Assembly: GCF_042453785.1 (NCBI RefSeq)
Contig: NC_091661.1
Coordinates: 30,371,501-30,435,500 of the forward strand
Direction: 5' to 3'
Length of the DNA: 64,000 nucleotides
Origin: Malus domestica
Lineage: Eukaryota; Streptophyta; Magnoliopsida; Rosales; Rosaceae
Below, one piece after another: positions 2,231-63,230 of this stretch (within the stretch, counting starts at the first letter, position 1; the number at the start of each line of letters is the position of its first letter). Both the position numbers and the translations under genes were made by a program. Below the pieces are notes generated by a model. It made no database searches and was not told the DNA's origin. It saw only the letters and a list, made by a program, of their open reading frames with translations.

Positions 2231-2239
2231 CAGCCCTAT

Positions 2240-2247
2240 TATAAATA
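2240..2247 (+). promoter_or_regulatory. TATA box of the LEA_2 gene
   Basis: The sequence TATAAATA lies about 110 bases before the start codon of the intronless LEA_2 gene. It is followed by a C/A-rich leader typical of a plant 5'UTR (2270-2356). The position fits a start of transcription near 2270. Assignment is by sequence and spacing only. Confidence 0.6.
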
Positions 2248-2356
2248 CACTTTCCTTCTTGCACTAAATTGACAACACCTTCAAACCAAACCAACAACAA
2301 AAGGAAAGCCTCTACTTCCCAATCTCAGTCCAAACCAGATCCAGAATCATTACAAC

Positions 2357-2929
2357 ATGACCGGAACCGACGATTCGCACCGAAAGCGAAATAGGTGCTT
2401 GCTTTGCATAGCCGCCGGGATCATAGTCCAAACCGTTATCATAGTCCTCTTTGTGGTTTTCGTCCTCCGAGTCAAAACTCCCAAAGTCCGTTTAGACTCG
2501 GTTGCAATCAACAGTAACACACTCGTGATAAACTCCAGCTCCTCCTCTCCTTCCTTCAAAGTTCAATTCACCACCGTCGTTGCGGTCAAAAACAACAACT
2601 TTGGACACTACAAGTTCGAGAGCAGCAAGGCAACTTTCTCGTACGAAGGCACCGAAGTCGGCGAGGGAACCATAGATAAGGAAAAGGCTAAGGCTAAGAA
2701 AACAAAGAGGATTGATGTTTTAGTCTCGTTGAGTTCGAACAAGATTTCGAGCCACTCTCAGTTGAGTAGCGATCTGAGCTCTGGGAATTTGACTTTCACA
2801 GCGTACGCTAAGTTGGATGGGAAGGTTCATCTGTTGAACATTATCAAGAAGAAGAAGTCTGCTGACATGAACTGCACCGTAAATCTTGATACTAAGGCCA
2901 AAACGGTCCACGTCTTGACTTGCAAGTGA
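2357..2929 (+). CDS. LEA_2 / NDR1-HIN1-like protein
   Basis: Intronless 190-residue protein. A short basic N-terminal tail (residues 1-13, with KRNR) precedes one strong membrane segment at about residues 14-38, then a C-terminal domain of the LEA_2 (late embryogenesis abundant, hydroxyproline-rich glycoprotein / NHL) type. It carries the family-typical stretch VAVKNNNFGHYKFESSKATF and ends in a conserved Cys-Lys. Members are type II membrane proteins, at the plasma membrane or ER, tied to stress and pathogen responses; a specific role cannot be read here. The start is the first ATG after a clear TATA box and a clean leader, and the length is normal for the family. A broken paralogue lies 3 kb downstream on the same strand, so the locus was tandemly duplicated. 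Confident in family, not in subfamily. Confidence 0.9.
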   Translation: MTGTDDSHRKRNRCLLCIAAGIIVQTVIIVLFVVFVLRVKTPKVRLDSVAINSNTLVINSSSSSPSFKVQFTTVVAVKNNNFGHYKFESSKATFSYEGTEVGEGTIDKEKAKAKKTKRIDVLVSLSSNKISSHSQLSSDLSSGNLTFTAYAKLDGKVHLLNIIKKKKSADMNCTVNLDTKAKTVHVLTCK

Positions 2930-4377
2930 TCAAATTATTAAGTCCTTGATTAATTTTCGTCTTTCTTCTTTTCTTTTTATTGGGTTTTCTTGGGAATTAT
3001 TTTTCATTTCATTTTTATGGGTTTGAAGTTTGGTTGTTGTTGAATATTAATTTGTATTCTTAGTTTTTCATATGGAGGGAAATATTATAAGTATGTTGAA
3101 GGCTGTGCAAGTTTTCATCTTTTGCATATTCTTTGTACAATATTGGTTTAAATTTTTGAGATCCACAGTATTTGCTTGCAACGAATTATTCATTAACTTT
3201 TCGAACAAAAAAAAGAAAAGAATTATTCCATTAACTAACTTCAAATTTGTTCAATTAAAGATTAGGACTACTGTATCTGCATTTCTTTTCTCCCTGCGTT
3301 TTTTTAACTACTATTTAACTTGTAATAAACCTTAAGTCTCAATAAGGAGAAAAAAGTCTTAAGCAAATTTGTGGTCTCACCACTATTCTCAAAATTGAAT
3401 CATTTATCTTGTTGTTTAAATAAATTTAATGTAGATAATAAACGAATTTTCAAGTAGATAAGATCGGTCGCGTGGTCTCCGTTGGAGATGGGGTTGCGTG
3501 TGTTTATGGATTGAACCAGATTCAAGCTGGGAAATGGTTGAATTTTCCACCAATGTGAAAGGAAGAATATTCTCACTTGTATGCCTACCTGGCACATTAA
3601 CCTCTTTTTCTTAACTTCGTTCGATTTTTGCCTTTGCTTCATTTTCTATCACCTCAGAGCATTCAAGCATTCGAACGCATTCTAGAAGGCTTATATATAT
3701 GGTAAATGATTATCGCAACAACGGCAAAAAAGAACATTAGTGCACTATGGTGTGGGCTCAACCCCCACTGATCCCAATCTCGTTAATATTTAACAATTTA
3801 ACCAATGACACAATCGTTTTATCAAAAAAATTATATATTTATATATATGAATAAAAAAAAAATAGCAAGCTGGAGCTTGAAATTGATAGGATGACATTGA
3901 CAGTAACGAGAGCATGAATTATTTAGGTTGTACCTGCCAGCTTGAATTCAACTAGCCAAATGAAATGAAAATCATGTTAACCACATTCGCATGTAATGTC
4001 GGGCTGATGGCCCGCTGGTAGTGATTGCCTACGAATATTGTCGCATCTGCATATATCATGATCATACGTAAGAAGGAAATGATGACTTTTATATTCAAAT
4101 TTCGGTTGAAGAAAATAATTAGGGTAAAAAGTTGCGTGAATTTGATAAAGTACTGTATTTACTGTGTGCACTTTTGATAACCGAACACACCTGGATTTCA
4201 TGGCTGTTTATAAAAAAGCACTGATCTAATTTTGCAGACCTGAGACCTGTATACTTACGTTGAGTGGATAGAGATTTCAGTCTACTAATGTAATGTTATG
4301 TAAAGAAATTTACATATAACATTGTGCTATTGGATCGTATAAATAAAATAATTGAGAAATTGATCATATTTTAAAGG
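2930..4377. other. Gene-free stretch after the LEA_2 gene
   Basis: The 3'UTR of the LEA_2 gene probably fills the first 150 bases. The rest is AT-rich with short unrelated open frames. No domain, RNA gene or clear element end was seen. Confidence 0.4.
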
Positions 4378-6320: not shown

Positions 6321-6551
6321 TACTTCATACGTATACTGTTTAATTCATTTTTCATTTTTAGATTGTTTTGTGAGATATGAGACATTTTGCAGCTGTACAA
6401 TGTAGTCCGTTATTAATTTTCCTATCTAATATTCTTTGTTTGTGATTAGTGATTCGAAAGTGGTTTGAAGTGTTAATAATATTGAATTCAATTGCATATT
6501 GTTATGATTGATGGTTTCAAAATCTTATAGCTTGTCATTAACCATTATGGT

Positions 6552-6894
6552 TAGGCTCTTTAGTTAAAATGGTCTCTAAGATTGACATAACTATTTATTT
6601 TAATCCATGATATTTAAAATCGATAGAAGTGATCACTGAGTTTGTTCATCGCCTCATTTTGTCATTTCATTAAAAGTCTCCGTTAAATTAAAAGTATTTT
6701 TGTCAAGTCAACCCCTTCACTTTCGTGAAAAAAATCCTCAGTTTAACAAAGATTTTTACGGAATGACCAAAATGATTGATGGTGGACGAACTGAATGACC
6801 AATTCTATCGATTTTAAATCTCAAATACTTAAACAAGGAGTTATAATTTATGTCAATCTCAAAAATCATTTTAACTAAAAAAAACCTTCAGGTT
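6552..6894. mobile_element. Palindromic MITE, copy 2
   Basis: The two halves are inverted repeats of one another: the left end 'ttagttaaaatggtctc' and 'agattgacataact' returns at the right end as 'tgtcaatctcaaaaatcatt' followed by 'ttaactaaaa'. The inner parts also match, including 'aaaatcgatagaa' against 'ttctatcgatttt'. No coding capacity. The shape (about 340 bp, long arms, short centre) is that of a foldback MITE. A related, more decayed copy lies at 4378-4700. Confidence 0.75.
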
Positions 6895-8214
6895 ATGCCC
6901 TTGTTTAAATTTTGGTTTCAAGTAGACCCATGAAGTAGCCCAAATAAAAGATTTCGGCCTAATTATACCTCTCCACTGGGCTGTAATGATTTTTTCGGAA
7001 CCTTCAAAAAACAGAGAAAAATGATTGTCCGGGCCTTAACAGTTTGGGTTGCCAGGTACATAATTCGATGCTATTTTCATTCTCGACTTCAAGTGGTTTA
7101 TAGTTGTTGGGTGAGTTCTGAGTAGTCCGGCTTTACATTTACTAGAAAATAGAAATTTTTAATTCAATTTTGACCGTTTATTTTTAATAAAATTTTGCTT
7201 GTGCTTGGGTTTTTTATTGGAAGGAGTCGTTCTTTTCTACAAATTACAATTTTATATGTATAGACGGTCTAAAGCACGAGCCGGTACTTTGACATTGTGT
7301 ATAGATTGTCTGAAGCACGAGCCGGTACTTTGATATTGTTTGAACGTTCCGGAAAGCTTGGCCGATGATTGAGACAGATCCAATGAACTGCAGCAAAAGA
7401 AATCTAATTCGAATCCTAATGTTTCCTAAGAATGTTGATTTACCCTAAAAAGAAAGCTAAAGTTGGAAAATGAGCTCACATGACATGATCATAGACACGG
7501 ATGCTAATGACCTAACACAATAGTTTATCGTGTTCATCATTTTTGTATCATACCTATTATTTTAACAGTTCGTTCATACTAAATTCGTTATCTTAACTGG
7601 TTCTTAACAAGTGAGCCAATAATGACCCGATTCGTTAGTAGGTTGTGTCAGGTTAACGGGTCATGGAAGAAGTTGTCATGCATAATGTCTAGATATAGCA
7701 AATAATATCTTATATGGTTCTTAACGAGTAACCTGATAACGACTTGACTTGTTAACAGGTGATCTGATAACGACCTGACTCGCCAATAGATTGACACAAA
7801 ATCAGTTATTTTCATGTCACTGTGTGTCAGGTTAACGAACCGTAGAAGAAATTGTCAAGATTATTTGGTGCTAATATTGTCCCAGAAGTTTATATATTAT
7901 CACCAGACACGATATCTGTGGAGGAAACACAGCAAATCTAATTGTCCTCGGTTGAAAATATGGTGTCGGGTGTCTGTTTGTGTGGTGTTTCGTGGTGCAT
8001 TGCATTCATCTGCGTATATATAATTAATCACATTTCTTGATTGAAACACTTAAACTGAATCATGTCTTTCTGCTGCTCCAACTTGTGCAGATGCAGTGAA
8101 CAGTAGCATTTGCCTCGACTTATCAACTCTTCTTTTGTCCTAATTTAGGCACTCAGGAGTTAGGAGTTAATATATTGTTTAAAAATATGAAGCCCACCTA
8201 AAATACAAATGAAA
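6895..8214. other. Gene-free stretch with short tandem repeats
   Basis: No gene recognised. A 43-base unit containing 'gcacgagccggtactttga' is repeated twice in tandem at 7258-7341. Between 7600 and 7860 degenerate copies of 'ttaacgagtaacctgataac' and 'gtgtcaggttaacg' recur, suggesting decayed transposon sequence. Confidence 0.5.
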
Positions 8215-8350
8215 AAGGTTTAGAAACTTTGAGTTTTAACGATAAGGATAAAATAAATAATAAAATGAATAGTACCACGATTAACTTTTTAATATAAAAA
8301 TATGATTTTTCGTTAAAATGAACAGTACCGAGAGTTTTTCGTTGAAGTTT
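8215..8350. repeat. Dispersed short repeat family R1, copy 1
   Basis: About 135 bases around 'aacgataaggataaaataaa', 'gaatagtacc' and 'tttttcgttaaa'. The same family recurs, in the other orientation, at 19920-20085 and in a shorter form at 23685-23825. No coding capacity. Probably an AT-rich MITE. Confidence 0.65.
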
Positions 8351-8578
8351 CTAAAATACTAACCATAATACACCATCGCTACTATCTTGTCATAGAGAAC
8401 TTGGAATACTTGTAAGAGTACCAAGAAACACAATCTAAAAATCGATTTTGTGGTGTTTTGTATTGTGTTCACATTGCGTCGAGCATTTTGTCAACCATAA
8501 TTCAATAAATTTATAACAATTCTGTTAGTGTAGTTTGCACGTAGGTACATGGCACTTACCATTGTGAATAAGTGCAAA

Positions 8579-8780
8579 AGCATCTTCAACGGAGTACGCA
8601 AATGAGTAGCTCCAATGATGTAGTCAATTGGGTAGGCAAATTTTGCCTAGACCCAATTATAGGCAGATGAGGCCTTGTCACTATTTTATGTGAAGAAAGG
8701 AAAAAAAAAATAGAAGACACGTCAACCTTTGTAGTACAATTTTGCCTATTTTCTTTGCCTAAACCATTAGAGATGCACTA
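8579..8780. mobile_element. Small MITE with 'gcatcttcaacgg' ends
   Basis: The left end 'agcatcttcaacgg' is the diverged inverse of the right end 'accattagagatgca'. Inside, 'gtaggcaaattttgcctaga' and 'aattttgcctattt' form further partial inverted pairs. The length is about 200 bases with no coding capacity. Ends of the form GAGCATCTCCAATGG are common on plant MITEs, so the assignment rests on that similarity. Confidence 0.55.
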
Positions 8781-9480
8781 ACAAAACTATTTGTACTCAG
8801 GGTCATCTCTGAGATTTTGAAGGTGCTATGCGAAATTTATAAAAAGATCCCTCCTTAAAATAATTTTAAAAAAAAGATAGAACAATGTATTTACGCTACT
8901 TTATATCATGTCGAAAAAAAAGAATAACTTTAGGATTTATCCTCCTTTGCAGATGCATATTCATTTAGTGGAACGAATTGGGTGAGTTGAAGACAACTCA
9001 ACATAGATAATTTTGGTCTAATTGAAACCGGCATTAGAAAGTAGGGTACCTCTAAAGGACTACATGAAACTGAGGGACGTAAATATGGTAGTGTCTTAAA
9101 TCTACCACAATTTCTCATTTCTTTTATCACATGATATCGCATAGTTGGTATGGAACGCCGACAACTTCACATTCTCGTTTCATGTAAGTCAGTCTCACTT
9201 AACTTGTGACTAGATAATGGTCTCAACTGTGAAGTTGAAATCTATTGGTGCCCGAGCTATGTGGTTTCCTTTTTGTTTTTTGTCATATTTTCTTCTTTGG
9301 CATGTCTGCAATGTGGTTCACCGTGATTGCATTCGTGTCTCCGATGGAATTTTGGGGCCACAAATTTTGGTGTCTTTTTTGGCATTTCTTGCTCATCATA
9401 ATTATGTGTTTGAACTGCAGTGCAAGTGCATGCCTTGCTCCTTTTGATTTACTGATATGATTTTTATATAAATTTGAGGG

Positions 9481-27983: not shown

Positions 27984-30900
27984 TTACAGGAAATAAGTTA
28001 GCTGTTGCTTCTTCCTCGACCCACCCTCGCCATACAGTTCATTCCACTGTTTCAGCTCGCTCATTACTGATCCCTCTGAAGCGAAACTCGCAGCAACCTG
28101 CATCGCACCACAGACATGCATAAAGATACATGCAGAACAAACGAAAAATGATAGTTTTGTGGATAGTGTACGAAAAGAAGGTGAAATTTGTTACCTGATT
28201 CTTTGCCTGCCGCATATCTTCCATGTTTAAAGCCCTCAGGGTAATTACGTGCTCCTCTTTCTCTTCTTCTTTCGGTTCTGAAGCTTCTTCTGTGCCCTTT
28301 TCTTTTGCATCTTTCTTCTTCTTTTCCTGTAGTTCCAAGTTTTATCAAAATCGTTAAGCATTACCAGAATTGGGAAGAAAAACAATAAGAATATGCCGAT
28401 GCAGAGGAAGAGTGTGAAGGTAGCGAATTACCACATCCTTTTGCCTCTCCTGTTGTATAAGCTCCCTAACTGGTCGATAAGCTGCTGTCACGCACAAGTT
28501 CTGTTTTTCCAGGATTTAGTTTCGTGAGTTCGTTAGACTGGTCACAATTTAAGGTTGGTTATTAATATTGTTAACTCGAAAACTAACCTTAAGATCGCTT
28601 CCACTGTATCCTTCTGTCATGGTTGCAAGCTCCTTAAAGTCTAGATTTTCGACCTTTTCTTTCGAAAGAAGAGTTCTCAAGATCATTTCCCTGTTCTCGA
28701 CTGAGGGAAGGCCAACCATGACTCTGTTCAATAGGGAAAAAGATTTCGAATTAGCAGACAGTTAAAAAGAAGGAAGAAAAAATCTGAATGTAACACAATG
28801 TGGATCATTACCTCCGCTCAAATCGCCTGATGATTGCCTCATCAAGGTCAAATGGCCTGTTGGTTGCGGCGAGAACAAGAATTCTCTCCCCGGTCTTTGT
28901 CAAAAGTCCATCCCAGTGTGTCATGAACTCGTTCTTAATCTTCCTCATGGCCTCATGCTCCCCAACTCTGGTTCGCTGCCCCAGCATGCTGTCAACCTCA
29001 TCCACGAAGATAATAGTCGGGGAGACCTTTGCTGCAAGTGTGAACAGAGCTCGAACGTTCTTCTCATCTTCTCCAAACCATTTTGAGGTGATCGTGGACA
29101 TCGAGACGTTGATGAAACTTGCTCCTGCTTCACTTGCTATGGCCTTTGCCAGCATTGTTTTTCCAGTGCCAGGAGGACCGAAAAGCAATATGCCTCTGCA
29201 AGGCTTCAGAAGCCCACCTTTGAAAAGGTCTGGTCTTCGAAGCGGGAGCATGACCAACTCCTGAAGTGATTCTTTGATCTCATCCAATGCACCAATATCT
29301 GCAAATGTGACTCCAATCTCATTTGCAGGGATAACCTCCGGCCTTATGCGCTTCTCAAATTCATTGTCAGGTACCACTTCCTGCACAAACACCGTGAATT
29401 TTTTATAAGACAACGAAGATCTAAACAAAATAGACACTGTGAAACATGTGGATTTTATGGATAGTATTATAGGACTTGAACTTACTACTTTTGGAGGAGG
29501 TGGATTCTCGCTGTCCTTCTTCACCCCAGGACCAGATTTCTCGGCTTCACCTTTGTTTTCCGGTGCTGCAGTTTCAGACTTCGATTCAGTCTTTGCACCG
29601 ACGGCCTCTTCCCCTTCGGTTTCCTAAAATTTAAGAGAAATGATAAACCATTAAGTCATCAGAAGTTAAAAGCAGGTCCATTTAATCCGCGACTCAAAAC
29701 GTAAAACATCAAGAGGTTAGAAATGACAGTAGAAGAAAAACCTTGTTGGAATCGGCATTGGTCTCCAGTTTCAGAGAATCTTTCCCGCCAGATTTTCCCT
29801 CCTGGAATATACTCAATCCATGGGACAAACTGTTCCAGATTGAGAGTCGTAATTAGATAGATAAAATCATAAAACAGTCTGTTTTGCAGTGAAATATAAC
29901 CAAAGAAATTATGATACTGAGAATTTGGTATCTACCTCGTCGATGATATAACAAGCTTTCCATTTCGATATTCTGGATCCTTGTTTTGCATCAAATGATA
30001 AGATATTGCCGAAATCACAATCTCTTCTATGTAGTTGCTGACTACCATTGTGTCTGCGTGGCAGATTGAACCAAGATCATCACATTCAAGATCATTCGCC
30101 GCAAGCACCTCGGCTATGTGATTTTTGTTGTCATGAAATTGGATCATCTTCATGTCTTCTTCCAGTTGAGCCTTCCAGCTGACGAGATGAGTCTCATCTT
30201 CCGGGGGACTGATCTCAATATTGTAGGGGAACAAAGCAGCAAGCTTCTCGTCGACTTCTTTGCAATCATCTTCAGCGTCTACTGTCCGGGAACCAAGTAT
30301 CAACACTGACCCTGAAAGTCTCTTCAACATTTTGTTGAACAAATTGTAAAACCGCCGTGATTGGAGAAAAAGCTTCTCGACGTCCCTGAGGCATAAGATG
30401 ATGGAACGAGTTTCTGACATTGAAGATAAGACCTGTACAAGAAATAATATGAATGCCTATTAGTACTTTACTAACATTTTCAAGCAATATTACCTTGTAT
30501 CTAACAAAAAGAAAAGACATTACCTTGTAAAGTGAGTGCAGAAAAAGTTTCTCATCGAAACACCAGTTGTTCACGCGTTTGAGAGGAACTGAAAAAACGA
30601 AAGAATTACAGAGTGATAGTATAAATTTAAAGCAATTCTGCGCATAACTAATGTACAAATTACGTTCTTAAACAGCCAGTATTTTTCTGTAGGAACAAAC
30701 CTGAACTTGGCGAAGCAGATTTGGAACTGATGCTACTCATATCAGATGCAGAAGAACCATTTCTTTGAAGCGTTCGAGTTGGCCCTTCAGTGCCCCTGCG
30801 GGTATAAGATAGCGGTGTTTTAGAAACGACACATTTCATAAACACCGGCACATTTGATACAAGAATCAATCACCCAATACTGTACCTTGATTTGAGATCA

Positions 30901-38046: not shown

Positions 38047-39360
38047 TATATACTCTATATATAATATATGAGACAGATGATCTGAAATTACAAGACTAGT
38101 CACAGAGATTCCTTTGAGCATCCATCGTATCTTCTTGGTCCTTGAGGGCTTTTACACCTCAGCTGCACATGCTTTGGTTCACAAATCTTTTGTCCACATT
38201 TCCATTGGTGGGTTACACGCAATGCCACTTTAGCTTTTAACTACTTTTTGCTCAAGTACTCACTTGGTCACACACCACAGGTCCACAGTCCACGCCCCAA
38301 AAAGCTTCTTTCATTATAAATTAGGGTTTTGGCAAAGAATTAAGAGAAAAACAGCAATATAAAAGGAAAATTAGCACAGACCAAAAAAATATATATACAA
38401 TTAGCAGTTGTGGTGGTCATGGTCGGGTCAACACACATTCTTTTGTTCTTCTTTCTTTATTATTCAACAGGTTAATTAATTGGCTTTTTCTCCATATTTT
38501 TTTTTTATGAATTATCAACTTTCCCTCCCATGATATGGCAAATTGCATAGAGAAGTTCATCAACTAGTCATGATTGTGCGAGGATAATTTTCAACCATGC
38601 ATATAATTCTTCAAACTCCTTTACCTTTATTACAAACGGATGTGATTGTTGTTCTCACTAAGAGACAGCATATAGGTAGTCCAAAATATTTGTTGGCCAT
38701 ATAAACATTATTTGGCCCCAAACGGAAATATATCCAACTGATTTTATCTAGAATTTGACTCAAAACTAAAACAAGCTATGGTAATTAAAGGCTCAATTCT
38801 AATATTGCTATTGACAGTTTGTTAAGTAAGACGTTAATCAGTTTGTCTAATTACTTAGAGACTACGTCTTTTAGCAGAGATGTATATACAAGTCTTCTCA
38901 GTTCTGTTGTACAAATCATTCTAAAATCAATGCCTTTTTTAGAGGAGATGTTATGATTCACCAAACCTTTTTGTTTTTCCTATTCCATGCATGTTGGTTG
39001 TGCGTATATAATCTTTCAAATAATTTTATTTGCCGAGATCTCGATCATAAATTTCAGAAAGCGTAAAAAATTAAAAAAAAATAAAATTATGCATCCACAA
39101 TTTTTCACTTTAGAAAAAAGCAGTCAAAGTGTACTCCCTTGTTTTCCTTGTTGATGAAAAAGCAAAGTGTACTCCTTTCTTTATCTTGTTGATGTTTTGT
39201 TGCATGTCGCCTTTCCAATCAGCTAAGTAACTATTCTGCTACCCAACCAAAAATCAAATAAAAAACTTATAATACTAATGAAAACTTCACTCTAGTTAAA
39301 GGGCCTTTTTGACTCAATAATAAATAATATATACACACACATATTATTTCCATTTAGAGA

Positions 39361-42300
39361 CCTGGATTTCACTGTTATAATCTACGTATTTGTATTATTG
39401 AGATTTTAGATTATTTTTCGAGAATTTATTTTAAATTGTTTGAATTTAGATCTTAATTAGATTAGTTACGAAGTTGAAGTTTGGAAATTAATTATTTAAA
39501 ATTCGTAGACCGTTTGAGGTCACAAATTACATTTTCGAATAGAGATCGACCTCATGAACGCATAGGCGAAAACCGTTCGTGAAATGGAGTTATAATGAGG
39601 AAATTAGAGACGTGTTGGGAAATAAATATAGAAATGTTTAGAAGCTGCCAAGTGGCAGCAAGGGAGAGGGGAGAAAGGAGAGAGTGCGGGAGAGAAAAGG
39701 GGGGGGGGGGGGGTACAGCCCAATCAGAGAAAAAAGGAAAGAAAGAAAAGGAAATGAGAGGAAGGGGAAATGGGGAGAAAAGAAAAAAAAAAGGAAACCG
39801 GGTTTCCCTTAACCTGTGACTCGACCCGGTGGATTCTCCCATCTCCGGCCACCTTGGACGACTAGGTTAGTGTCAAAATGACCCTTACCACGAGGCCAAC
39901 CGATCCCTCTTCCGTTTTCTTGTGAGAATTGGGTGGAAATTTGGTGAATTTTGGGTGAAACCGTACAAAAGGGGGCGCATTGGTTGGGTTCCATTTTGCC
40001 ACGATTTGAAACTACCTCCTCCAATTACCACCACCAATAGACTCCCCTCAATCCCAGGAACAAATCCCAAGCAGTGGTGGAGGCATCGGAGCTCGTATGG
40101 AAGCCGAATCGAAACACAACCTTCTCTAGGGTTCCGGCGGGTTCATGGAGAATTGAGGCTTTTTCAGGACAAATTTGCCTTAGCCACATGTATGAAATTT
40201 ACTCCCCTCATTGAGATCTTCATTTCTGTAAATTTTGGTAATTTTTTAAAATAATTTATTTTTTCCGGCAAGTCGGGGCCACAGACCGCCACCCGCGGCG
40301 GCGGCCTGGCCAGTGGGCCAACAATAGATGCCTTGATTTCATAATTGATATCCGTATGACGTAATTTGATTGTTTGGACTTAGTTTCATTACGATACCTT
40401 ACTTGGTCAAAATATGAATCAACGATCCGACTGTTGGATCATCACCCAATCTTAATGCGTGATAGAACATAATATTTGTGTATCATAGAAACTGACGAAT
40501 TGGGAATCCGAAGTATGGATCTTCCGTAATTGGATTTCTAAGTTTGTAAAATTAAATGTCGGCCGCCACTTGAATTTGAAATTGGTGGATATCTGACCGT
40601 CGGATCGTAATGAAATTTTAGTATGTGGTTCTACAAACATAATGTGGACTTTGGGAAGTTACAGATCAAGAATCTAATTGGCGGATCTTCCGGTTTAGAT
40701 TTCTAGGGTTGTGGACCCTACTCTCGACCATGATCGATGGTTGACTTTTTAGTCAACTAGCTTGAGTTCTTCTAGCGTGCTATTGATCTTAGAGTGTGGT
40801 TGAGATGTTATGGAGCTTGATGGGCTCATCGTGATGACGTGTGTCCTTGATTGACGTGCACCTCGATTTACGTATTAATGACATTATATTGTTATATGCT
40901 TGTTTATTTTATGTGATTTGACGTGTGTATTGAAATGTTCTTCAAATTGAGGGCTAGTAGGAGACCATGACCCTACTTGGTTAATCCGCGATGAGGGGTC
41001 ACTAGTAGTCTCGCTTGGTTAATCCGCTATAGGGAACCATATTATTTATGGATCGTGCTTGGTTAATCAGCGATAGGCGATCCTTATGGCTATACATACT
41101 TAGGAGTGATCATGTTTGGTTAATCTGCGATGGGTGATCACTACCTAACAGTTCCGTAGGTGTGACTCTGCTTGGTTAATCTGCGATAAGGGGTCACTAC
41201 CTACTTAGTTATCTTGGTTCTGCTTGGTTAATCCGCGATAGGGGACCATATTTTCTATGGATCATGCTTGGTTAATCTGCGATAGGCGATCCTTATATCT
41301 TGGTATGGCCATACACACACTTAGAGGTGATCACTACCTAGAGCTATATGATACAGTCCTGCTTGGTATATCCGTGATGAGGGACTGTTAGGGGTGATCA
41401 TGCTTGGTATATCCGCAATGGGTAATCACTACCTAGAACTAGGATGTGGTCTGCTTGGTATATCCGCGATAGGGGACCATATGTATTCATAAGTGATCAT
41501 GCTTGGTGTATCTGCAATGGGTGATCATTGCCTGCACGACGAGATTATGCCTATGGTTCTGCTTGGTATATCCGCGATGGGGGACCATAAGCATTCTAGA
41601 GGTGATGATAATTAGTTGTATTTGGTATATTTGATAGGCGATCATATTCAGTTTGGTTCCATTGAGTGGTTCGGAACTCGAGGTTGTTGCATTTCGTAAA
41701 GTGGTCTGAAATCCCATTATTTGGAGAAGTAAGCTTGGCCTAACTGTGTCACTCTAGCCTTAGTTTTATATATATTTGTGTCAATGGTTTCGAGAATCTT
41801 GTGAATTGAGTTAGAAAAAATGTTGGACGTCTGGGTGACTCCTTCGGGATTTTCTACGATTCAATTATGATTTAATACAGTATGAATTTAGAAGATATGG
41901 AAATGATTGTTAGTATTTTGATCAAATTAGTTAATTAATGTGGCTAGAGAATAGTTTGTGCTTCGTCAATTCTTTAATATGATATATGTTGTGAATTGCG
42001 ATATCATGTTGAGACATAATGATTTATTTGTTGGATGGAAGAGAAATCGTGATTCTTCATGGGGGTTTGCTATGTAGCCCTGAGTCCAGAAATTTTATGT
42101 TGGTCAGGTTCTAATAAATGATTAAGGAATGCTATGCTTTTCTGTTTGAACTTAGTGTGATACATGCTTGATTTTGTGAGTGACGAACTACGAATGGCTT
42201 GATTCCAAATGAGGGTACGTAGGCAGTCTAACGAGAATGTTAGATGCAGCCATAAAGCTTACGAAAAATTATTATGAAATTTGGACCTTGAGTGGTCTTA

Positions 42301-42392
42301 TTTCATGTCCTGGAGGCGGGGTATATTGGATGTTTGAGTATGTAGTGACGTTCGTGGCAATCCTGGGCGTAGGTCGAGATCGGGGCGTGACA
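39361..42392 (+). mobile_element. LTR-like element, possibly a solo LTR
   Basis: About 3 kb with no coding capacity. The right end 'gatcggggcgtgaca' has the CA terminus seen on many Rosaceae LTRs, and 'ggtacgtaggcagtctaacg' shortly before it looks like an LTR tail region. The five bases after the end (AGAGA, 42393-42397) also occur at 39356-39360, a possible target duplication, but the left end there starts CCTGG, not TG, so the 5' boundary is uncertain. It includes a G run (39702-39713), GA-rich sequence, and the hairpin array at 40960-41650. Read as a large solo LTR or a truncated element. Confidence 0.4.
40960..41650 (+). repeat. Tandem array of hairpins with a constant loop
   Basis: About 13 units, spaced roughly 40-65 bases. 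Each has a conserved core close to CTTGGTTAATCYGCGAT or CTTGGTATATCCGCGAT. Most cores are flanked by short arms that pair, and the arm sequence changes between units while pairing is kept. Examples: GGATCG (41050-41055) with CGATCC (41078-41083); GTGATCA (41106-41112) with TGATCAC (41135-41141); CAGTCC (41354-41359) with GGACTG (41382-41387); TGGTC (41447-41451) with GACCA (41475-41479); GTGAC (41162-41166) with GTCAC (41193-41197). Units 1-7 carry TTAATC loops, later ones TATATC or GTATC. One unit near 41325 has lost its hairpin, and the one near 41008 has a mismatched arm. Confidence 0.85.
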
Positions 42393-44795
42393 AGAGAAGT
42401 CTTGGATCTTTATACATGTGGATGTTAATGGGATCTTCCACCAACATTAGCCAATGGAATTGCAGATCCGTTAGCTGCTGTGTGTGCCAATAATGAAACC
42501 ATTACCTCTGCCCTTTGATATTGGTTTGCACCCGGAGGATGTGAAGAAATAACTCATTGTAAAAGTTTATAAGTTATTATGTTACAAAAGAGTTAATTTG
42601 TTAACTCACGTAGTGAATCGTTAAATGCCACAAACAGTGAGGGATGTCGAGAGAGTGAATCCTAAATTGGGAATTAAGGGACCTTACATGTCCTTATAAA
42701 AAGTTGTACCACTCCTCTTATTTGCCAATTAATTTTGGGGTAAAACTACAACTCCCTTCACTATCATTCTAGCTAAACAAATTCTGTGTTACCATAGGAA
42801 TTTATAGCGATGAATTAAAAATGATAAGATTTCTTTTCTTGAGGCCCAAGTTTGCCTTTGGGTTGGTAAAGCTAAAGCAATATACAATGATGTTGATGTA
42901 GGACTTGATGCCAGCACATGGTTGGTTTAGTGTATAAGACAATGACTTTTAGAGAGAGAGAGAGAGAGTTATGAAGATTTGACATGTTCTCAAGTTCATA
43001 ATATAAAGCATGATTAATCAAAACAATTCATAATATAAAACATGATTAATCAAAACGATGTAATATGACCTCCATATGAAAGAGTTTCATACTAGAGAAA
43101 GCACTACACATAATTAGATCTAATCAAACATGCATTAATAAGGTGGGTGTTATGCATGTGAGTGGAGAAGGCACACAAAAACCGACCCACACAGGCTGTA
43201 AGACCTAATAAATCTTAATTAAACAAATAACAAAAAAATTGTAGACCAATAGTTTGCCCAGGTTGGCCCAGCCAGGAGATGCCGACTGTTTTTTTGTTGT
43301 TGTTTCTGGTGCCAAGTGACACATCCACACAGAAAGATGGAACTTAAGACCTAAGCATGTCTAAAATTAAGGTAGGCAAACAACAATATGACAACTATCT
43401 CACTTTTGAAAAAACCCTAAAAGTAAAACCCTAAAAGGTGCAGGCAAAGCCCTAAGAATTCAAATCCATATATATTTCATCAAGCTTAACTATCAATTTT
43501 TATTTCTTATTTTAAATATAAAATTCTATTCTTTTAGCCATCTTCCTGTGTGCTCGCGTGCGTCTGTGCATGTTTATGTGCTAGAATGTAGACCCGCCAT
43601 TTTCAGGGCCACACCCTAAAAGCAAAGGGGAGAAGTAAACCCATGCAGTAAAGCCATCGTTATCAGGTTATGTTAGGACAATATGCTTTCCTATTTCCAT
43701 GCCAAGTTGCAGTTGTAGCTTTCAACTAAGAGAAACAACTTTCGTGAATTTTCAACCCTTTCCCACTGCTTCGATCTATCGTTTTCCTTACTGTATGAAG
43801 TTTGATGGTCTTTCTCTTTCGTAAACAAGGAGAAAACGACCATCAAACACTATTGGCTCTCAAGATAAAGAGCGAGACTAAACAAACAAGTGCCGCCGAG
43901 GTTCCCCCAAAAAAAAAAAAAAAAAATTGTGGATCAACACTTTTTATTCTGAGAGCCCTTTAAAAAGTGGCAAATACATATATAGAAATTTAAAAGCAAA
44001 AAGTCCAAAATGAGCTAAGAAGTAAACCTTGTTAGGGCTTATAAAGAGTTAAATTACTATTATATTGTCAATTATCTTATAAACACATGCAAGGTTTGAC
44101 AAATTTTCAATACGAAACATACCTTCATATCTTGAGATGATAACTAATTTATTTATTTATATTATATTATTTGTTTGGGACTGTGTCTACCACTTCCTTG
44201 ATCGTAGCTAGGTACCTGTTGGACGCAAAATCACTGAAAATCGTGTCACATTCTCAATTGTATCTTGCATGATCGACTCTAAATCCCTGTTTTTAATTAG
44301 GTCATCGAAATGCATTAATGAATTAGTGGTAACAAAGATTGATGTGACAACATTTTGGTTGATGCTTTATACATGTAGGGCTTAGTGGTTTACATATATA
44401 TATTAATTGGGCATGGTATATATAACTGATAAATTGCCTCGGATATATGTTTCATTGGCTTCTTATAGTGCTGACTAGCTAGTGCTTGGTGGGGAAGAAA
44501 TCATTTGTTTAGGAAAAGAAATATAAAGATGCAATTTGACCACTAAACTTATGCCAAGTGCAGCAGTCCAGTACTTGTCCCACAAATTAAAAGATTCACA
44601 AGAAATTCCCACTCTTGTGCCTCCGATTCCGGTAGCTTAACAAATGTCCAGGAAGCCTTGGTTCCAAAAAAGTAGGGCCAAATTAAACCGTTTGATTGTT
44701 CATAAAATAGTTGTAAAATAAAGAATCTTGGTTAGGGTTTTATTCTCAAGAACAAAGGTGCTTGGAAACGAACCATAATCCTTTTTTTTCGCCGG

Positions 44796-47570: not shown

Positions 47571-48461
47571 ATTTTTTTTATATGGATCAGTTAATGGTTT
47601 TACCACTGCAGTCCACTCTTCCGGAGGTCGGGAAGAGTCACAGAGGTATTTCAGCCTCTTCTGACCATATTTGGAGGCTAAAATGTGAACTTGTAGCAAC
47701 ATTTATGATCCGAACTGAGCATGAAAATTTCACATAGGACTCCGGTATAAGTTCTAGGAGCTCTTATTTTTAGCTAGGCTAAGCATAAAGATTCACAAAT
47801 TCACATAGCACTCTGGTATGAGTTCTATGTTCGCAAAATTGACCCAAAATAAATGCCCATGTTGAATTGGGCCAATTGAGTTGGGAACAATAATATTGAA
47901 TCAGGCCGAATTAGTTGAGAGCACCAATCCAAAAGCAAAAATGCCAAGTTGAGATCACTAGCTAGTACCAGTCTTAGTGGCATTTTCTCTTATTTATAAA
48001 TGAAAGATTTTATGTTTAATTTACATAAATAATGAATTAATATCTAATTATAACAAAAGGTTTTAATACTAATTCAGCAAGTAGCAAAGAATAGAAAATA
48101 TGTATAAAGTTCGACAAAGAAAAAAAAGCTAATCATGTATGTATGAAACTTTAAAAATAGTCTTAAAGTAGCATATTCATTCACGATTAATATAACATGT
48201 AAGATATGTACATCAACCACAGAAAAAAATAATTTTGAAAATATCTTTGCAACATACATGATCCACCACAAAAAACTTTCGAAAATATCTTCACAATTCA
48301 TACTAATGTAACTTTCGGTGGTTATATTGCATATTTTTTTTCGATTAATCGTGAGTGATTCATGACATCGATTAGGACTGCCCCCATATGCAAACGTTGG
48401 TAAATTGTTTGACTTAATTTGGCAGTTCTGATGCACTTAACACTTTGTGCTGCAAATTTTT

Positions 48462-50528
48462 ATGATGAAAAATAACAAAAATATGAATTCTGGAAAACAG
48501 AAATCCCTTGAACTTCCATGTCTCATCAAGTATATATTATCAAATGAAGAGGTTGGCTTTGGTGATGCTGAGGAGATTAGATCCGATGAACGTGAGCATT
48601 CTGTTGCTATTAGCATGCCAACATCACCAGAGGAAATCCATTTGCAGAACAAAAAAAGAAATCTCTTCATCGGTGGAATCCCAGCTTCTTCTGCCACACT
48701 TAAAGGTGCTAGCAGCAGCACACTGCCGAAGACAGCAAAATTTCACCTTCAGCCAATGGAAAAAAGCTCTGCATTTGAAGAGGAAATGAACACTGGACAT
48801 TTCCCTTCTCATCCGAGTATTGAAAGTTTGAAAGATAAGAGATATGATACTTTCAAAACATGGTCCAGAAAACTCGACAGGAAGATAACGCTTCTCCATG
48901 GAAATAGACCGGGGGAAACTGAATCTGAGAATGTTAATGGGAAAATCGAAGAAATCGAGCGTTTACCTGCAGACCGATACTTTGATGCATTGGAAGGGCC
49001 AGAATTGGATACTCTTAGGGTAATCTGTCTTTTGGGTTATGTTCCTATAAAATATTTGCAATATTTTGATATTGTTGTCTTTCATATGATTTTGGTTGTT
49101 CTCCTTTGAAGCTAACATATATATTTTTCCTCTCAACTTTTGATTTAACAGCCTTCAGAGGAAATACTGCTTCCGGAAGACAAACAGTGGCCATTTCTTC
49201 TTCGGTATCCAGTTTCTTCGTTTAGCATCTGCCTCGGCGTTAGCAGCCAAGCAATTTTGTGGAAGGCCCTGCCTACCTCTGCCTCAATGAAATTTCTCCA
49301 CATGAGCTTAACAATAAATATAGTTTTGTGGTGCATTTCAGTTGTCCTTTTAGCTATTGTTTCTTGCATCTACCTTGTAAAAGTAGCCCTTTACTTTGAA
49401 GCAGTTCGCCGTGAGTACCACCATCCAATCCGTATCAATTTCTTCTTTGCTCCATGGATAGCCCTCTTGTTCTTAGCTCTTGGAGTGCCACCTTCATTTG
49501 CTAACAACCTGCATCCATCTCTTTGGTACATTCTCATGACTCCGCTTCTATGTCTCGAGCTTAAAATCTATGGACAGTGGATGTTCGGAGGCCAGCGTAG
49601 GCTTTCAAAAGTGGCGAATCCTTTCAACCATCTCGCAATAGTTGGGAACTTTGTGGGGGCGTTGCTTGGTGCATCAATGGGACTACAAGAAGGACCAATA
49701 TTCTTCTTTGCTATAGGGTTTGTTCACTACATTGTATTATTTGTTACTCTCTACCAAAGACTTCCAACAAATGATACCGTGATCCCAAAAGAACTCCATC
49801 CTGTGTTCTTTCTCTTTGTTGCAGCACCAAGTATAGCTTCAGTAGCATGGGCAAAAATCCAAGGCTCCTTTGATCATGGCTCGCGGATTGCGTACTTCAT
49901 TTCCTTGTTCCTTTATCTCTCACTGGCAAGTATATATAACCTGAACTAAGATCTGATCATGTCCATTTTGTTAAGCCTGGCTAGTATTGAGTATTAATTT
50001 GTAACTTTTAGCTTTTCGTGCTCTTATAGGTAGTCCGGGTTAATTATTTCCGAGGATTTAAGTAAGATATCGCTTTCATTGCGCACTAAACTGAATCCAA
50101 ATTTTGTAATTTTTGGACTTGGATATTTTTCTGATCACATTCATTTGCATTTGTGTTTTCATAGGTTTTCTATGGCATGGTGGGCTTATACTTTCCCAAT
50201 GACTGGTGCTGCTATTGCAACCATCAAGTATTCAGATGAAGTCACAAATGTGGTAACACAAGCTCTGGCTGTCATACTCTCTCTCATTGCCATAATCACA
50301 GTCATTGCTCTTCTCATAACAACTATCTTGCATGGCTTAGTGCTTCAAAACCTCTTCCCTAATGACATTGCAATTGCCATTAGTGACAGAAAGCCAAACC
50401 CTAACAAGAAGTGGTTCCACGTAAATGGCTACGAGAACAACGATTCAGAAGCTGTCAAGATCGTGACCCATTTTGAGATGCAACCCCAAACTTCAGAGAG
50501 AAACTTGCATCGAGATGCCATGGTGTAA
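48462..50528 (+). CDS. SLAH2/3: S-type anion channel SLAH2/SLAH3-like, copy A
   Basis: Four exons: 48462-49019, 49152-49925, 50030-50061, 50165-50528; 575 residues in one frame. The N-terminal cytosolic part (about 1-190) has family words SVAISMPTSPEEIHL, DKRYDTFKTWSRKL and LPADRYFDALEGPELDTLR. The rest is the ten-helix SLAC1/TDT domain: LLPEDKQWPFLLRYPVSSF, YFEAVRREYHHPIRINFFFA, YGQWMFGGQRRLSKVANPFN and WWAYTFPMTGAAIA. The C-terminal tail is cytosolic. These are plasma-membrane nitrate/chloride efflux channels opened by kinase phosphorylation. Intron 2 starts GC rather than GT (GCAAGT at 49926). Compared with copy B, the first intron and about 30 neighbouring residues are missing without loss of frame. 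The start is the first ATG of the frame, parallel to copy B. Confidence 0.92.
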
Positions 50529-52978: not shown

Positions 52979-55224
52979 ATGATGGAGAACAGCAAAAATC
53001 TGGATTCTGGAAACCAGAATTCCCCGGAACTTCCGTCTCTTATCAAATATATATCATCAAATGAAGTGGTTGGATTTGATAATGTTGAGGAGTGTATATT
53101 TGTACAATCAAGTGATCATCAACCTATCAGTCCAGCCGAAGTAATTTATTGAAAACCTTCTTTTCGTGTGTAAGATTTACTTCTCTACTTTGTTTTCGTG
53201 TCAATTTCATCATATTGTAACTTCTGGTATCCAATTGTATGAGCAGGGAATTGAGATAGCTGCTTTAGAAAGCATAGTTGATGAATCCGAACTCCCAAAT
53301 CATCAAAGGGTTTATTCCATTTCTATTAGCATGCCACCGTCACCAATGGAAATTCATTTAAAAAACAGCAAAAGAATGCTCTTCGGTGGTGAAACAAGTT
53401 CCAACAATGAAATTCCAAATTCTTCTTCCCCAACTGAGATCAGCGGCAGCAAACAGCCGAAAGCCGTGAAATTTCACTCCCAGCCAATGCCAAAAAGAGC
53501 TGCAATTGAGCATGCGACTATCAATGGACATTTTTCTTATCATCCGAACATTGAAAGGTTGAAAGATAAGAGGTTTGATAGTTTCAAAACATGGTCCGGG
53601 AAACTTGAAAGGCAGATGACACTACTCCGTGGAAAGACGCCAAGGGAGACTGAAACAGAGAATGATAATGCGCAAAATGCAGAAGTTGAACGTTTACCTG
53701 CAGACCGATACTTTGATGCACTTGAAGGGCCAGAGTTAGACACCCTTAAGGTAATGTCCTTGATGTTCTTCAACATTTACAAATAATGTTTCATATTGCC
53801 TTGCTATTCAAATTTTTATCTCGCATCTTTAATTTGATCAAACAGGCTTCCGAGAAAATACTCCTTCCAGAAGACAAACAGTGGCCATTTCTTCTCCGGT
53901 ATCCTGTTTCCGCATTTAGCATATGCCTTGGTGTTAGCAGCCAAGCTATTTTGTGGAAGACCATTCCTACCTCTGCCTCCACGAAATATCTCCACTTAAA
54001 CTTAATACCAAATCTAGTTTTGTGGTGCATTTCAGTTGCTCTTTTAGTTGTTGTTGCCTGCATCTATCTTCTAAAGGTGACCCTTTACTTTGAAGCAGTT
54101 CGTCGTGAATACTACCACCCAATCCGTGTCAACTTCTTCTTTGCCCCATGGATAGCCCTCTTGTTCTTAGCTCTTGGAGTACCACCTTCATTTGCTAACA
54201 AACTGCATCCAGCTCTTTGGTACATTCTCATGACCCCAATCTTATGCCTTGAGCTTAAAATCTATGGACAATGGATGTCTGGAGGCCAACGTAGGCTTTC
54301 AAAGGTAGCCAATCCTGTTAACCATATCTCAATTGTCGGTAACTTTGTGGGGGCATTACTAGGTGCGTCGATGGGACTAAAAGAAGGACCGATATTTTTC
54401 TTTGGTGTTGGGATGGCTCACTACTTAGTCTTATTTGTAACTCTCTATCAGAGGCTTCCGACGAATGAAACTGTGATCCCAAAGGATCTCCATCCTGTGT
54501 TCTTTCTCTTTGTTGCAGCACCAAGTGTAGCTTCCATGGCATGGGCAAGAATCCAAGGTTCCTTTGGTTATGGTTCACGCATTTTGTACTTCATCGCGTT
54601 GTTCCTTTATCTCTCACTGGTAAGTATTACCTGAACTAATTAAGATACACTGCTTTAGAATTAACAAGACAATTTTGACAATCAATTCATCCATTTTGTT
54701 AAGACTAGCTTTTCTAATTTTTTTTCATCCTCCTTTGCTGCTTGTACAGGCAGTTCGGGTTAATTTCTTCAGAGGATTTAAGTAAGATGTCATTTCCATT
54801 CATTTCTCTGGCTAAAATAATACATCATTTATACGTCAGTTTTCTAGCATTCATTTACATTTGATTTTATAGGTTTTCATTGGCATGGTGGGCATATACT
54901 TTCCCTATGACTGGTGCTGCCATTGCAACCATCAGGTACTCGAACGAAGTCACGAATGCGGTAACACAAGCAATGGCTGTCATACTGTCAGTCTTTGCCA
55001 CAATCATAGTCACTATTCTCCTCATAGTAACCGTCTTACATGCCTTTGTGCTTCAAGACCTCTTCCCCAATGACATTGCAATTGCCATCAGTGACAGAAA
55101 GCCAAAAGCACAGAGGAAGTGGTTCCACCTCAGACATGGGAGCTCGGACTCCAGGGATATTGACAAATTCTTGAAGTCAGCAACAAGTTTAGAAAACAAA
55201 GATTTAGAAGATGCCAAGCTATGA
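52979..55224 (+). CDS. SLAH2/3: S-type anion channel SLAH2/SLAH3-like, copy B
   Basis: Five exons: 52979-53140, 53247-53750, 53846-54619, 54750-54781, 54873-55224; 607 residues, all introns GT-AG. The N-terminal cytosolic region is longer than in copy A (VGFDNVEECIFVQSSDHQ and GIEIAALESIVDESELPNHQ) and keeps SISISMPPSPMEIHLKN, KTWSGKL and LPADRYFDALEGPELDTLK. The SLAC1 domain follows with YFEAVRREYYHPIRVNFFFA, YGQWMSGGQRRLSKVANPVN, GSFGYGSRILYF and WWAYTFPMTGAAIATI. The role should be anion (nitrate/chloride) efflux at the plasma membrane; which tissue cannot be read here. Exon lengths of 774 and 32 bases are identical in both copies, showing recent tandem duplication. Two adjacent in-frame ATGs (52979, 52982) could start translation. 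The exon 2 acceptor could be three bases earlier, adding a Gln. Confidence 0.94.
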
Positions 55225-60959: not shown

Positions 60960-62990
60960 GTTAACCCCACTTTTCCTTTTAATTCTTCTTGAAAGTTCAC
61001 AAAGATGATGTTTTATTTTTACATTTTCAGTTTGCTTTCAAATGAAAAAAAAAAAAAATTAAAACAGGTTCATGCATGCTCTATTAATTAATAAGCCGGA
61101 TTTGACTAAGAGCTTAATCAAAATAAGTTCCTAAATGTAGAAGTACACACAGATATTAGTGTATAAGGCAAGCAGATTCATGCACGTCTGTACAAGCTCC
61201 ATTATTTATCCAATTCCAACCTATATTCTCTCACAAGTATATCATTATCTTTTAATGTATTATTATTAATAGAGAAAGTGAATGGTTCGAAACTATTACA
61301 ATAATTTAAGGAATGAGGACGTTTCGAACTAAAGACGGGTGAATAGAAACTTAACATTCTATCCACTAAGATATTGGACCTTATACAACATTACCTGTAT
61401 TATATGTATTCGAGAAAATGTTAGTTGAATTTGTTTAGAAAGATGTCATTGTCTAATTGTTATGTTTTTTTTTTTATCGAGATTTGGTGTTACATTGTGT
61501 TTATCAAAAAGTTTGGGAAGGGTTTAGACCAGTTTTGAGAGGATGGTTTCAACATAAGATGTTCACTTGCGAACTACCTCAGCACAAACCTCAGCCTAAA
61601 CAATGTATAATACTATTCTATTATGTCGCAATCATTATATGCTGTATGCAACTATAGTGTGTTCCGACTTCTGAATAGTTATCAATGTCGCAAAGATGTA
61701 ATTAGGTTCTAGAAGGGGCAGACCTGTTATTAGCAAGTATTCTGGGGAGGTTTTATCATACAACTAATCAAGAATTTTTATTTTTTTATTTTTATCTCTC
61801 TTATTATGTGATCACGTATTTAGCGTTATAAAAATGTATGATAAATCTCTTGTTACACCCATTAATCTTTGCGTTTTGCGTGCCGGGTAAATCAACACAA
61901 ATTTAGGAGGGAAAAGGGAAACGTTTATTAGTGCTTTAAGCCTATGCATACAGACAGCAGATACATTGGACCATGAGCATGAGGAAAAGAGAAACCAGAA
62001 CCTGAGGTGTTTCCTTTGTTAGGTTTAATAGACCACACCTGGCTACTAAAGGGAAAAATGAAAGAGAAGAAAAGGATAGAAAAGTTCAAACATCATGATT
62101 ACCTATGACTTCTATAGATCACACGATTCAAAATTCATGCACAACTTAGAAAATTTCTTGTAAGTGTAGACGTAATCACATTGACTCATTGAGATGTGCA
62201 CCCTTCTATGTATTCGAGTTTCAATTCTCTACTAGGTGATGCTCCTTCCGCAATTTTTTTCAACAATTAAAACCGTTTATATTTTAATATATGATTCATT
62301 GATTATCCTTGTCGAAAATTAATTTAAAGACAACAGAATATTTTTAGATATCAGAACTGGCTAGGCAAGCATTCTCATGGTCCTCTAGTATATTACAATG
62401 CAAGGACAGCGAAGTGAAATCCTACACACAAATGGAAGGAATTAAAAGAAGACCATCGTCATAAACAGCTCAATTTTGTCCTTGAATCAGTAATATACAG
62501 ATGTATCGAAAATCTGTAGCAGAAAAGAAACAAGAAAATATCACAAAGCTTTCCTGGTGAGGAAATCTCAAGCTTTTTCATCCACTACTAAGCAGTATCT
62601 TCTCATGCTCAAATTAATTTTCAGAGAAATTTGCATCCTTTTAGTCCAAACTGAACCATTTAATAAAACAAATCGCTACAAGTAAAAGTAGACAGGGGTC
62701 CCCGGGGATGTCGGAGAAAGAACTCGACATGAACCCAGGATTTAGTGACAACCCAGAAAAGGAGAGTGATTTGAAACCAATTGGTCCCCCTCTTCTGTCC
62801 CCCTTTTAAGACAATAAGCAAATGCTAAAATTCCAAACATTCATAATATTATGGTATTTTGCTTCTGTGAGAATGCTCATCATCAATCATCAGTTAAAAT
62901 TTCTTTGGAAATTGGTTTAAATGATCATAATCAAATCCCAATTGATAGACTGGTCAAAATTAAATATCAACGATATATCAATCAAATATC
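60960..62990. other. Gene-free stretch
   Basis: AT-rich with short open frames. A stretch at 61320-61385, read on the minus strand as 'tcttagtggatagaatgtta' then 'tttagttcgaaacgtcc', resembles a tRNA-derived SINE head (A-box and B-box-like words). Nothing else was recognised. Confidence 0.4.
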
Positions 62991-62994
62991 AACA

Positions 62995-63230
62995 ATATAA
63001 CGGTTAAAGATTATTGACTTAACAATCAGATATCAATGACATACTTAAAAAGTTCATGCAAATTTGAAAATTGGTATTTTGGCCAATTTCCCAGACCTCT
63101 TTTTTTTTTGGAATCAACAACATAACGGTCAGAGATTATTGACTTAACAATCAGATATCAATGACATACTTAAAAAGTTAATGCAAATTTGAAAATTGGT
63201 ATTTTGGCCAATTTCCCAGACCTCTTTATA
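62995..63230. repeat. 108-bp near-identical direct repeat
   Basis: The unit 'acggttaaagattattgact', 'taacaatcagatatcaatga', 'catacttaaaaagtt', 'gaaaattggtattttggcca' and 'atttcccagacctcttt' occurs at about 63000-63105 and again at 63125-63228, separated by a T run. The copies differ at very few bases, so the duplication is recent. Confidence 0.9.

Follow-up and report, generated by a model that had tools for sequence, protein, structure and literature searches.

The window analysed here is the whole 64,000-nucleotide stretch of the Malus domestica genome, and all window positions are counted from its first letter. It contains a solo LTR of an LTR retrotransposon carrying a tandem array of short hairpins, which occupies approximately nt 1604–2288 of the LTR and consists of 12 units and a decayed 13th (Table 1). 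In each unit, a stem of 6–7 bp closes a 22-nt loop whose core is constant. Elsewhere in the window, two related gene copies (48441–50528 and 53145–55128) lie about 4.7 kb apart, with stretches 78–85% identical, the first of them encoding a SLAC1 anion-channel domain (Pfam). An AAA ATPase domain (Pfam AAA) is encoded on the minus strand at 28808–29623, and a 125-bp unit is present at 62988–63227 in two head-to-tail copies with 96% matches.

Table 1. Features of the solo LTR and its hairpin array (window coordinates).
Feature	Position	Strand	Remark
Target-site duplication AGAGA, left	39356..39360		
Solo LTR of LTR retrotransposon, 3.03 kb	39361..42392	+	both ends common to relatives with 5-bp target duplications
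Hairpin array	40964..41648	+	order M P G D S P G / (loopless D arms) / Q D P D P
Unit M, core 40976	40967..41002	+	arms TGACCC/GGGTCA
Unit assigned to P, core 41014	41005..41040	+	broken stem
Unit G, core 41058	41049..41084	+	arms GGATCG/CGATCC
Unit D, core 41115	41106..41141	+	arms GTGATCA/TGATCAC
Unit S, core 41171	41162..41197	+	arms GTGACTC/GGGTCAC, one G-U pair
Unit P, core 41223	41214..41249	+	arms TGGTTC/GGACCA, one G-U pair
Unit G, core 41267	41258..41293	+	without innermost pair
D-type arms fused, loop absent (GGTGATCACTACCTA...)	41326..41346	+	repeat family D5; at junction of two array types
Unit Q, core 41362	41353..41388	+	arms ACAGTCC/GGACTGT; opens TATAT part
Unit D (TATAT loop), core 41403	41394..41429	+	1 stem mismatch
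Unit P (TATAT loop), core 41454	41445..41480	+	stem off by one base
Unit D (TGTAT loop), core 41502	41493..41528	+	
Unit P (TATAT loop), core 41562	41553..41588	+	arms ATGGTTC/GGACCAT, one G-U pair
Decayed 13th unit	41609..41648	+	covariance model from the 12 units, E 0.0004
Target-site duplication AGAGA, right	42393..42397		
Single hairpin of second kind	41656..41677	+	GTTCC - ATTGAGTGGTTC - GGAAC

The core pattern CTTGGTWWATCYGCRAT, allowing up to three mismatches, was found 13 times in the window, with 12 of the matches located in 40976–41578 of the plus strand. Shuffled sequences gave a mean of 1.79 matches and none of 100 reached 13, which rules out chance for the cores. The 12 units could be aligned without gaps across 42 columns. 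In this alignment, 85.7% of the 84 cells of the 7-bp stem were paired in comparison with 69.0% in shuffles (0/500 as high), and sliding the 3' arm by 1–3 columns lowered the pairing to 27.4–51.2%, so chance is ruled out for the arms as well. Only one stem was plainly broken (core 41014) and one was off by one base (core 41454). The observation of the earlier note that the core is constant while the arms differ and yet stay complementary was thus confirmed, and the arm pairs quoted there are all present, G-U pairs included. The covariation score of the 12 units was 0.628 versus 0.302 in shuffles (0/500 as high), and two-sided change was detected at six of the seven stem pairs (mean of 3.5 in shuffles, 11/500 reaching six). 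No excess was observed for further pair types (11 versus 10.6 in shuffles, 279/500).

In the folding proposed in the earlier note as a check, z was between -0.67 and -4.33 for nine of the 12 units folded singly (cores 40976, 41014 and 41403 left out). The fold of the entire array as plus strand (-223.6 kcal/mol, z -1.79, 1/20 shuffles as good) was not exceptional. The array as minus strand folded with -158.7 kcal/mol (z -0.76), and the difference between the strands mostly reflects base composition, as their shuffles differed nearly as much.

The host of the array is an LTR retrotransposon, as evidenced by target duplications and by complete copies with two LTRs, a primer-binding site and a purine tract. 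The window LTR ends with GGGGCGTGACA, the 3' terminal CA being present. The 5'-most ~14 nt of its relatives (TGTGAAATCCCG...) are absent, the 5' terminus, TGTGAAATCC-like in the relatives, having been lost in this copy. Among eight places read at both ends, the 5-bp target duplication was exact in six (the window, L011, L015, L017, L024 and L072) and had one mismatch in two (L009 and L023). The search of the genome (651 Mb in 19 contigs) with the LTR 5' end revealed 340 matches with up to three mismatches versus none in the reversed control, and the loop core gave 2467 matches with up to two mismatches versus 122 in the reversed control. Other copies of the host element do carry the array, a point which the earlier note had left for checking.

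L072 is a complete copy. Its LTRs lie at 505–3484 and 6407–8831, a primer-binding site is located at 3492, purines precede the second LTR and the target duplication is ACTTG. The matched parts of its LTRs are 91–93% identical and a stretch of about 0.57 kb is absent from the second one. The two LTRs of this copy flank the hairpin array, which follows the primer-binding site rather than being part of an LTR. No open frame of at least 120 codons was found on either strand of L072, which leaves it without recognisable gag-pol coding capacity, and the open frames of L082 reach at most 128 codons. No helper element was found in searches at the nucleotide level. In L073, the array belongs to the first LTR and thus precedes the primer-binding site, which is intact (TGGTATCAGAGC). 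One end of this LTR is doubled over 146 bp, with the primer-binding site behind the second end; the interior is about 0.73 kb long and has a purine tract, and the second LTR could be matched over 366 bp only. The LTR end and the primer-binding site are separated by 7–8 bases in L072 and L073. A junction pattern with four bases in this place gave a single match (C17, one mismatch), its spacing being unlike that of the two copies. In L084 (C10), 10 core matches lie upstream of a related internal part.

The surroundings of the arrays were also inspected. In 21 loci, 30 open frames of at least 150 codons were present near arrays. The longest, with 1264 codons, adjoins an array in L025 (5185–8976) and resembles, by eye, a plant disease-resistance gene. 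Three arrays with near-identical spacing lie on C3 (27834793, 27883397 and 27930907) some 48 kb from one another, as if a large segment had been duplicated repeatedly. A pair 33 kb apart (C11, 1379296 and 1412630) was present among the LTR 5'-end matches listed.

For the comparison of units, 545 of them were collected from the window and 60 loci (L009–L068) chosen non-randomly, for their core matches or for a resemblance to the array of the window. Units were included if the core had up to four mismatches, and the arms played no part in the choice. They represent 517 distinct 42-mers, and a stricter variant analysis took 505 units. Loci L001–L008 (overlapping L009–L011), L069–L071 and L072–L084 were kept outside the unit counts. 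The layout of the unit is fixed: a 5' arm of 6–7 bases, two bases (TG in 457/545), the 17-base core, three bases (GGG in 221/545 and AGG in 207/545) and the 3' arm.

Based on the arms, seven stem types were distinguished, P (151 units), D (135), G (85), S (74), M (32), K (31) and Q (17), with 20 of the 545 units fitting none. Six types occur in the window, more than the about four arm classes counted earlier. Across the window and the 60 loci, the types follow the fixed order (M)PGDS-PGDS-K. Two types of array exist. Arrays with the TTAAT loop (400/545 units) mostly comprise (M)PGDS once or twice, often with K at the end, and those with the TATAT loop (115/545 units; types P, D and Q) mostly consist of alternating P and D with one Q. 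Arrays such as those of L056, L057 and L059 have no TTAAT unit at all, the exact TATAT core was found 607 times in the genome versus none in the reversed control, and L081 has 13 consecutive core matches, 12 of them TATAT, with mostly different flanks. Both array types are joined in the window and in L029, L030 and L031. Since the TATAT array type is a separate one and the window array joins both, the change from TTAAT to TATAT along the window array is a recombination junction. Its earlier explanation by local homogenisation had to be rejected, given the 607 exact TATAT cores and the several loci without TTAAT units. The fused arms at this junction are probably D arms whose loop was lost, as a D unit is expected from the order PGDS after the last G and ahead of Q.

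The type arms show two or three Watson–Crick forms at each of pairs 1, 3, 4, 5, 6 and 7. At pair 2, M carries C-G and S carries U-G, and the last S unit of the leader form, in L072, L074 and L080, has U-A. If the types share one ancestor, parsimony requires at least eight two-sided replacements between them. In the majority forms of nine type-by-loop groups, all 54 inner pairs (six in each) stand, 51 as Watson–Crick and three as G-U pairs, the latter in S, K and the TATAT-type P. Among the 517 distinct units, 86.4% of the cells of the stem were paired versus 41.5 ± 6.9% (maximum 60.1%) in 100 tree simulations with independent columns, and the pairing with slid arms was 31.6–48.3%. Double changes from one Watson–Crick pair to another occurred three times on internal branches versus 0.3 in simulations (maximum 2). 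The tree-based G-test (our own implementation in the manner of R-scape, with 60 simulated sets) was not significant for the 517 distinct units, the best stem pairs having E = 0.5 and 0.77 and the best score overall belonging to a non-stem pair (E = 0.4). The covariation check suggested in the earlier note was answered in part: two-sided differences do exist between types, but the tree-based test did not reach significance.

Among single changes away from a Watson–Crick pair, 16/49 on internal branches and 103/272 at tips led to G-U, and pair-keeping in the unit tree was no better on internal branches than at tips. An excess of Watson–Crick pairs over shuffles was observed at pairs 1, 3–7 and 10 and hardly at pairs 2, 8 and 9; pair 2 was Watson–Crick in 65.3% versus 64.2% in shuffles and G-U in 28%. 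At pair 4, A-C (6.1%) was commoner than G-U (2.8%). Variants confined to a single locus numbered 10 for G-U and nine for A-C, and the non-CpG variants common to at least four loci (12 G-U and six A-C) are too few to decide, on a plus strand rich in G and T. Pair-keeping variants were more frequent among shared (13/26) than among single-locus variants (11/51; Fisher p = 0.018), a difference confounded by recurrent transitions. Pairing fell as core mismatches rose, from 91% at none (235 units) to 83% at three (31 units). The non-significant G-test points to compensated differences between types that are few and old, followed by amplification and then by decay of the copies. The alternative offered in the earlier note, amplification of a few hairpin types that already differed, was also right, with seven types found in fixed order at 61 places and an E of 0.5 for the best stem pair. 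Old compensated changes between types and copying of types that explains most of the later pattern hold together.

The position of the array behind the primer-binding site is not confined to one copy. L072 and L080 both have it after the leader with the primer-binding site; L074, whose leader is 96% identical, retains one unit. For L075–L079, with leaders 74–85% identical, no core with up to three mismatches was found within the 1.5–1.8 kb fetched. The single hairpin of the second kind, next to the window array, has similar motifs in a scan of 21 other loci, 11 of which show one downstream of their array. A second array was noted in the LTRs of L072 (1901–2305 and 7242–7672 of the oriented copy), with GATTC/GAATC arms around a TTGAGTGATGGTC loop, its units showing a motif related to this second hairpin.

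The fact that other copies keep these stem types, and keep them in an unchanged order, suggests an RNA signal used while the element was active. Judging from the sequence, we tentatively favour, with something less than even confidence, the array being a cis-acting RNA module of this retrotransposon lineage, read by a protein, with the involvement of Gag as the weakest step. Each unit of the element transcript would fold in the cell into a short stem presenting the same 22-nt loop. As nothing beyond pairing would be required of the stem, its letters could have drifted through compensated steps; the part read by a partner would be the loop core. Multiplication of units as ordered blocks would provide many putative binding sites per RNA. 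Should the long LTR have the same organisation as in rice Retrosat2, the array would lie in R, and both of its positions would then be transcribed into the RNA leader. The partner is most likely a protein, since the loop is constant across stem types and exact complements of four 8-nt loop-core words were absent from nine element stretches. As the complete copy L072 has no gene-sized open frame, the Gag of a helper, which would package the RNA, is the natural candidate for this protein.

Two other partners of the loop were considered and rejected. For pairing elsewhere in the element, the nine stretches contained no exact complement of the four words, and one-mismatch complements numbered 0–6 per stretch (six in L072). 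Pairing of the core with 18S rRNA, judged by eye on an rRNA stretch, would be broken by the TATAT form. As for kissing-loop dimerisation, with a self-complementary loop kept through change, each of the two loop forms contains a palindrome (TTAA or TATA), but this may reflect one change and offers only four A-U pairs. A TATA box near 41768, just downstream of the array, was dismissed, being common only to L029 among 17 other aligned rows (two of them the same place).

The array could instead be the product of passive, satellite-like amplification, in which a replicating LTR gave rise to the types, unequal exchange and template switching at reverse transcription spread them, and the pairing is a functionless relic. 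The ordered block-wise duplication, the chimeric window array, the tree-based test, the unexceptional whole-array fold and the decay at tips, with single-locus G-U and A-C variants equal (10 and 9), all agree with such an origin. It is nevertheless rather unlikely, as the majority form of every one of the seven types is paired throughout the six inner positions, at least eight two-sided replacements are required under a common ancestor and the loop core stayed constant over types while the arms differ. An RNA module with another role, acting through a host protein in translation, export, poly(A) choice or stability, draws on the same structural evidence as the packaging-type signal and would suit an array located in the long LTR and in the leader; since nothing points to any single one of these roles, we regard it as unlikely. 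Enhancers made of repeated sites are known from LTRs, and the constant 17-nt core would fit a DNA-level module to which a transcription factor or chromatin protein binds repeatedly. A reader of the double-stranded core would need no complementary arms, however, and the G-U pairs in the majority forms of S, K and TATAT-type P and the array behind the primer-binding site make such a module quite improbable. Hairpin-templated correction, in which a polymerase or reverse transcriptase copies one arm from the other, would keep the arms matched without selection and may have acted on other pairs, but as the general cause it is very improbable, because S has kept its G-U pair (GTGACTC/GGGTCAC in 28 units from 25 loci) where templating would lead to Watson–Crick pairs.

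Returning to the RNA signal read by a protein, a more general proposal, for which we see only a rather small chance, is that gene-less plant retrotransposons use a transferable, ordered one-loop array as an amplified packaging signal in competing for helper capsid protein, and that this module moves between LTR and leader and recombines between families. To our knowledge, little is known of the RNA signals of plant LTR retrotransposons. The 2,467 core near-matches present in one genome on several interchangeable stems constitute a natural mutation series, from which one could learn what a binding partner recognises and in what way elements without genes may exploit others.

Satellite repeats born inside plant LTR elements are likewise tandem and amplified block-wise, but in the window array neighbouring arms differ while pairing is kept. 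No Rfam family (e.g., the retrozyme hammerhead) was matched in the window at the gathering score or in 40900–41750 at E ≤ 1. No match to a longer pattern was found in prokaryote genome contigs, and three exact core matches in viral contigs, one per contig, were taken for chance. In the literature on LTRs, hairpins, packaging and Malus, covered by titles and the starts of abstracts, no such array was named, and the core letters matched the available literature text once, in a paper on podocytes. The author of the earlier note knew of no described plant family of this kind, and none was found in Rfam or the literature searched. Rice Retrosat2 has LTRs of more than 3.2 kb (about 3.3 kb), in which its authors assigned U3 to nt 1–244 and R to nt 245–2266 (PMC3485330). 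It resembles the apple element in the LTR longer than 3 kb, the many solo LTRs and the tandem repeats within the LTR, but its repeat is a CTTTTT motif and the word "hairpin" is absent from the main text (PMC3485330). BARE2, having no Gag of its own, is said in the excerpted text to keep the packaging and dimerisation signals and to be packaged (PMC3735527). Such signals of BARE (PMC3735527) and MMTV (PMC8096270) are likewise placed in the RNA of the element; however, no ordered many-unit array with one loop is described in the excerpts of these papers, and the role of Gag in apple is putative. The packaging stem-loops of satellite tobacco necrosis virus share a common loop motif on variable structures, but, in the part of the paper covered, the loop is a short AxxA and the stem-loops are dispersed instead of tandem (PMC6475782). 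Hairpin signals and tandem repeats in LTRs were known already; what appears to be new, relative to Rfam and the portions of the literature searched, is an ordered array in which one loop is carried on several exchangeable stems.
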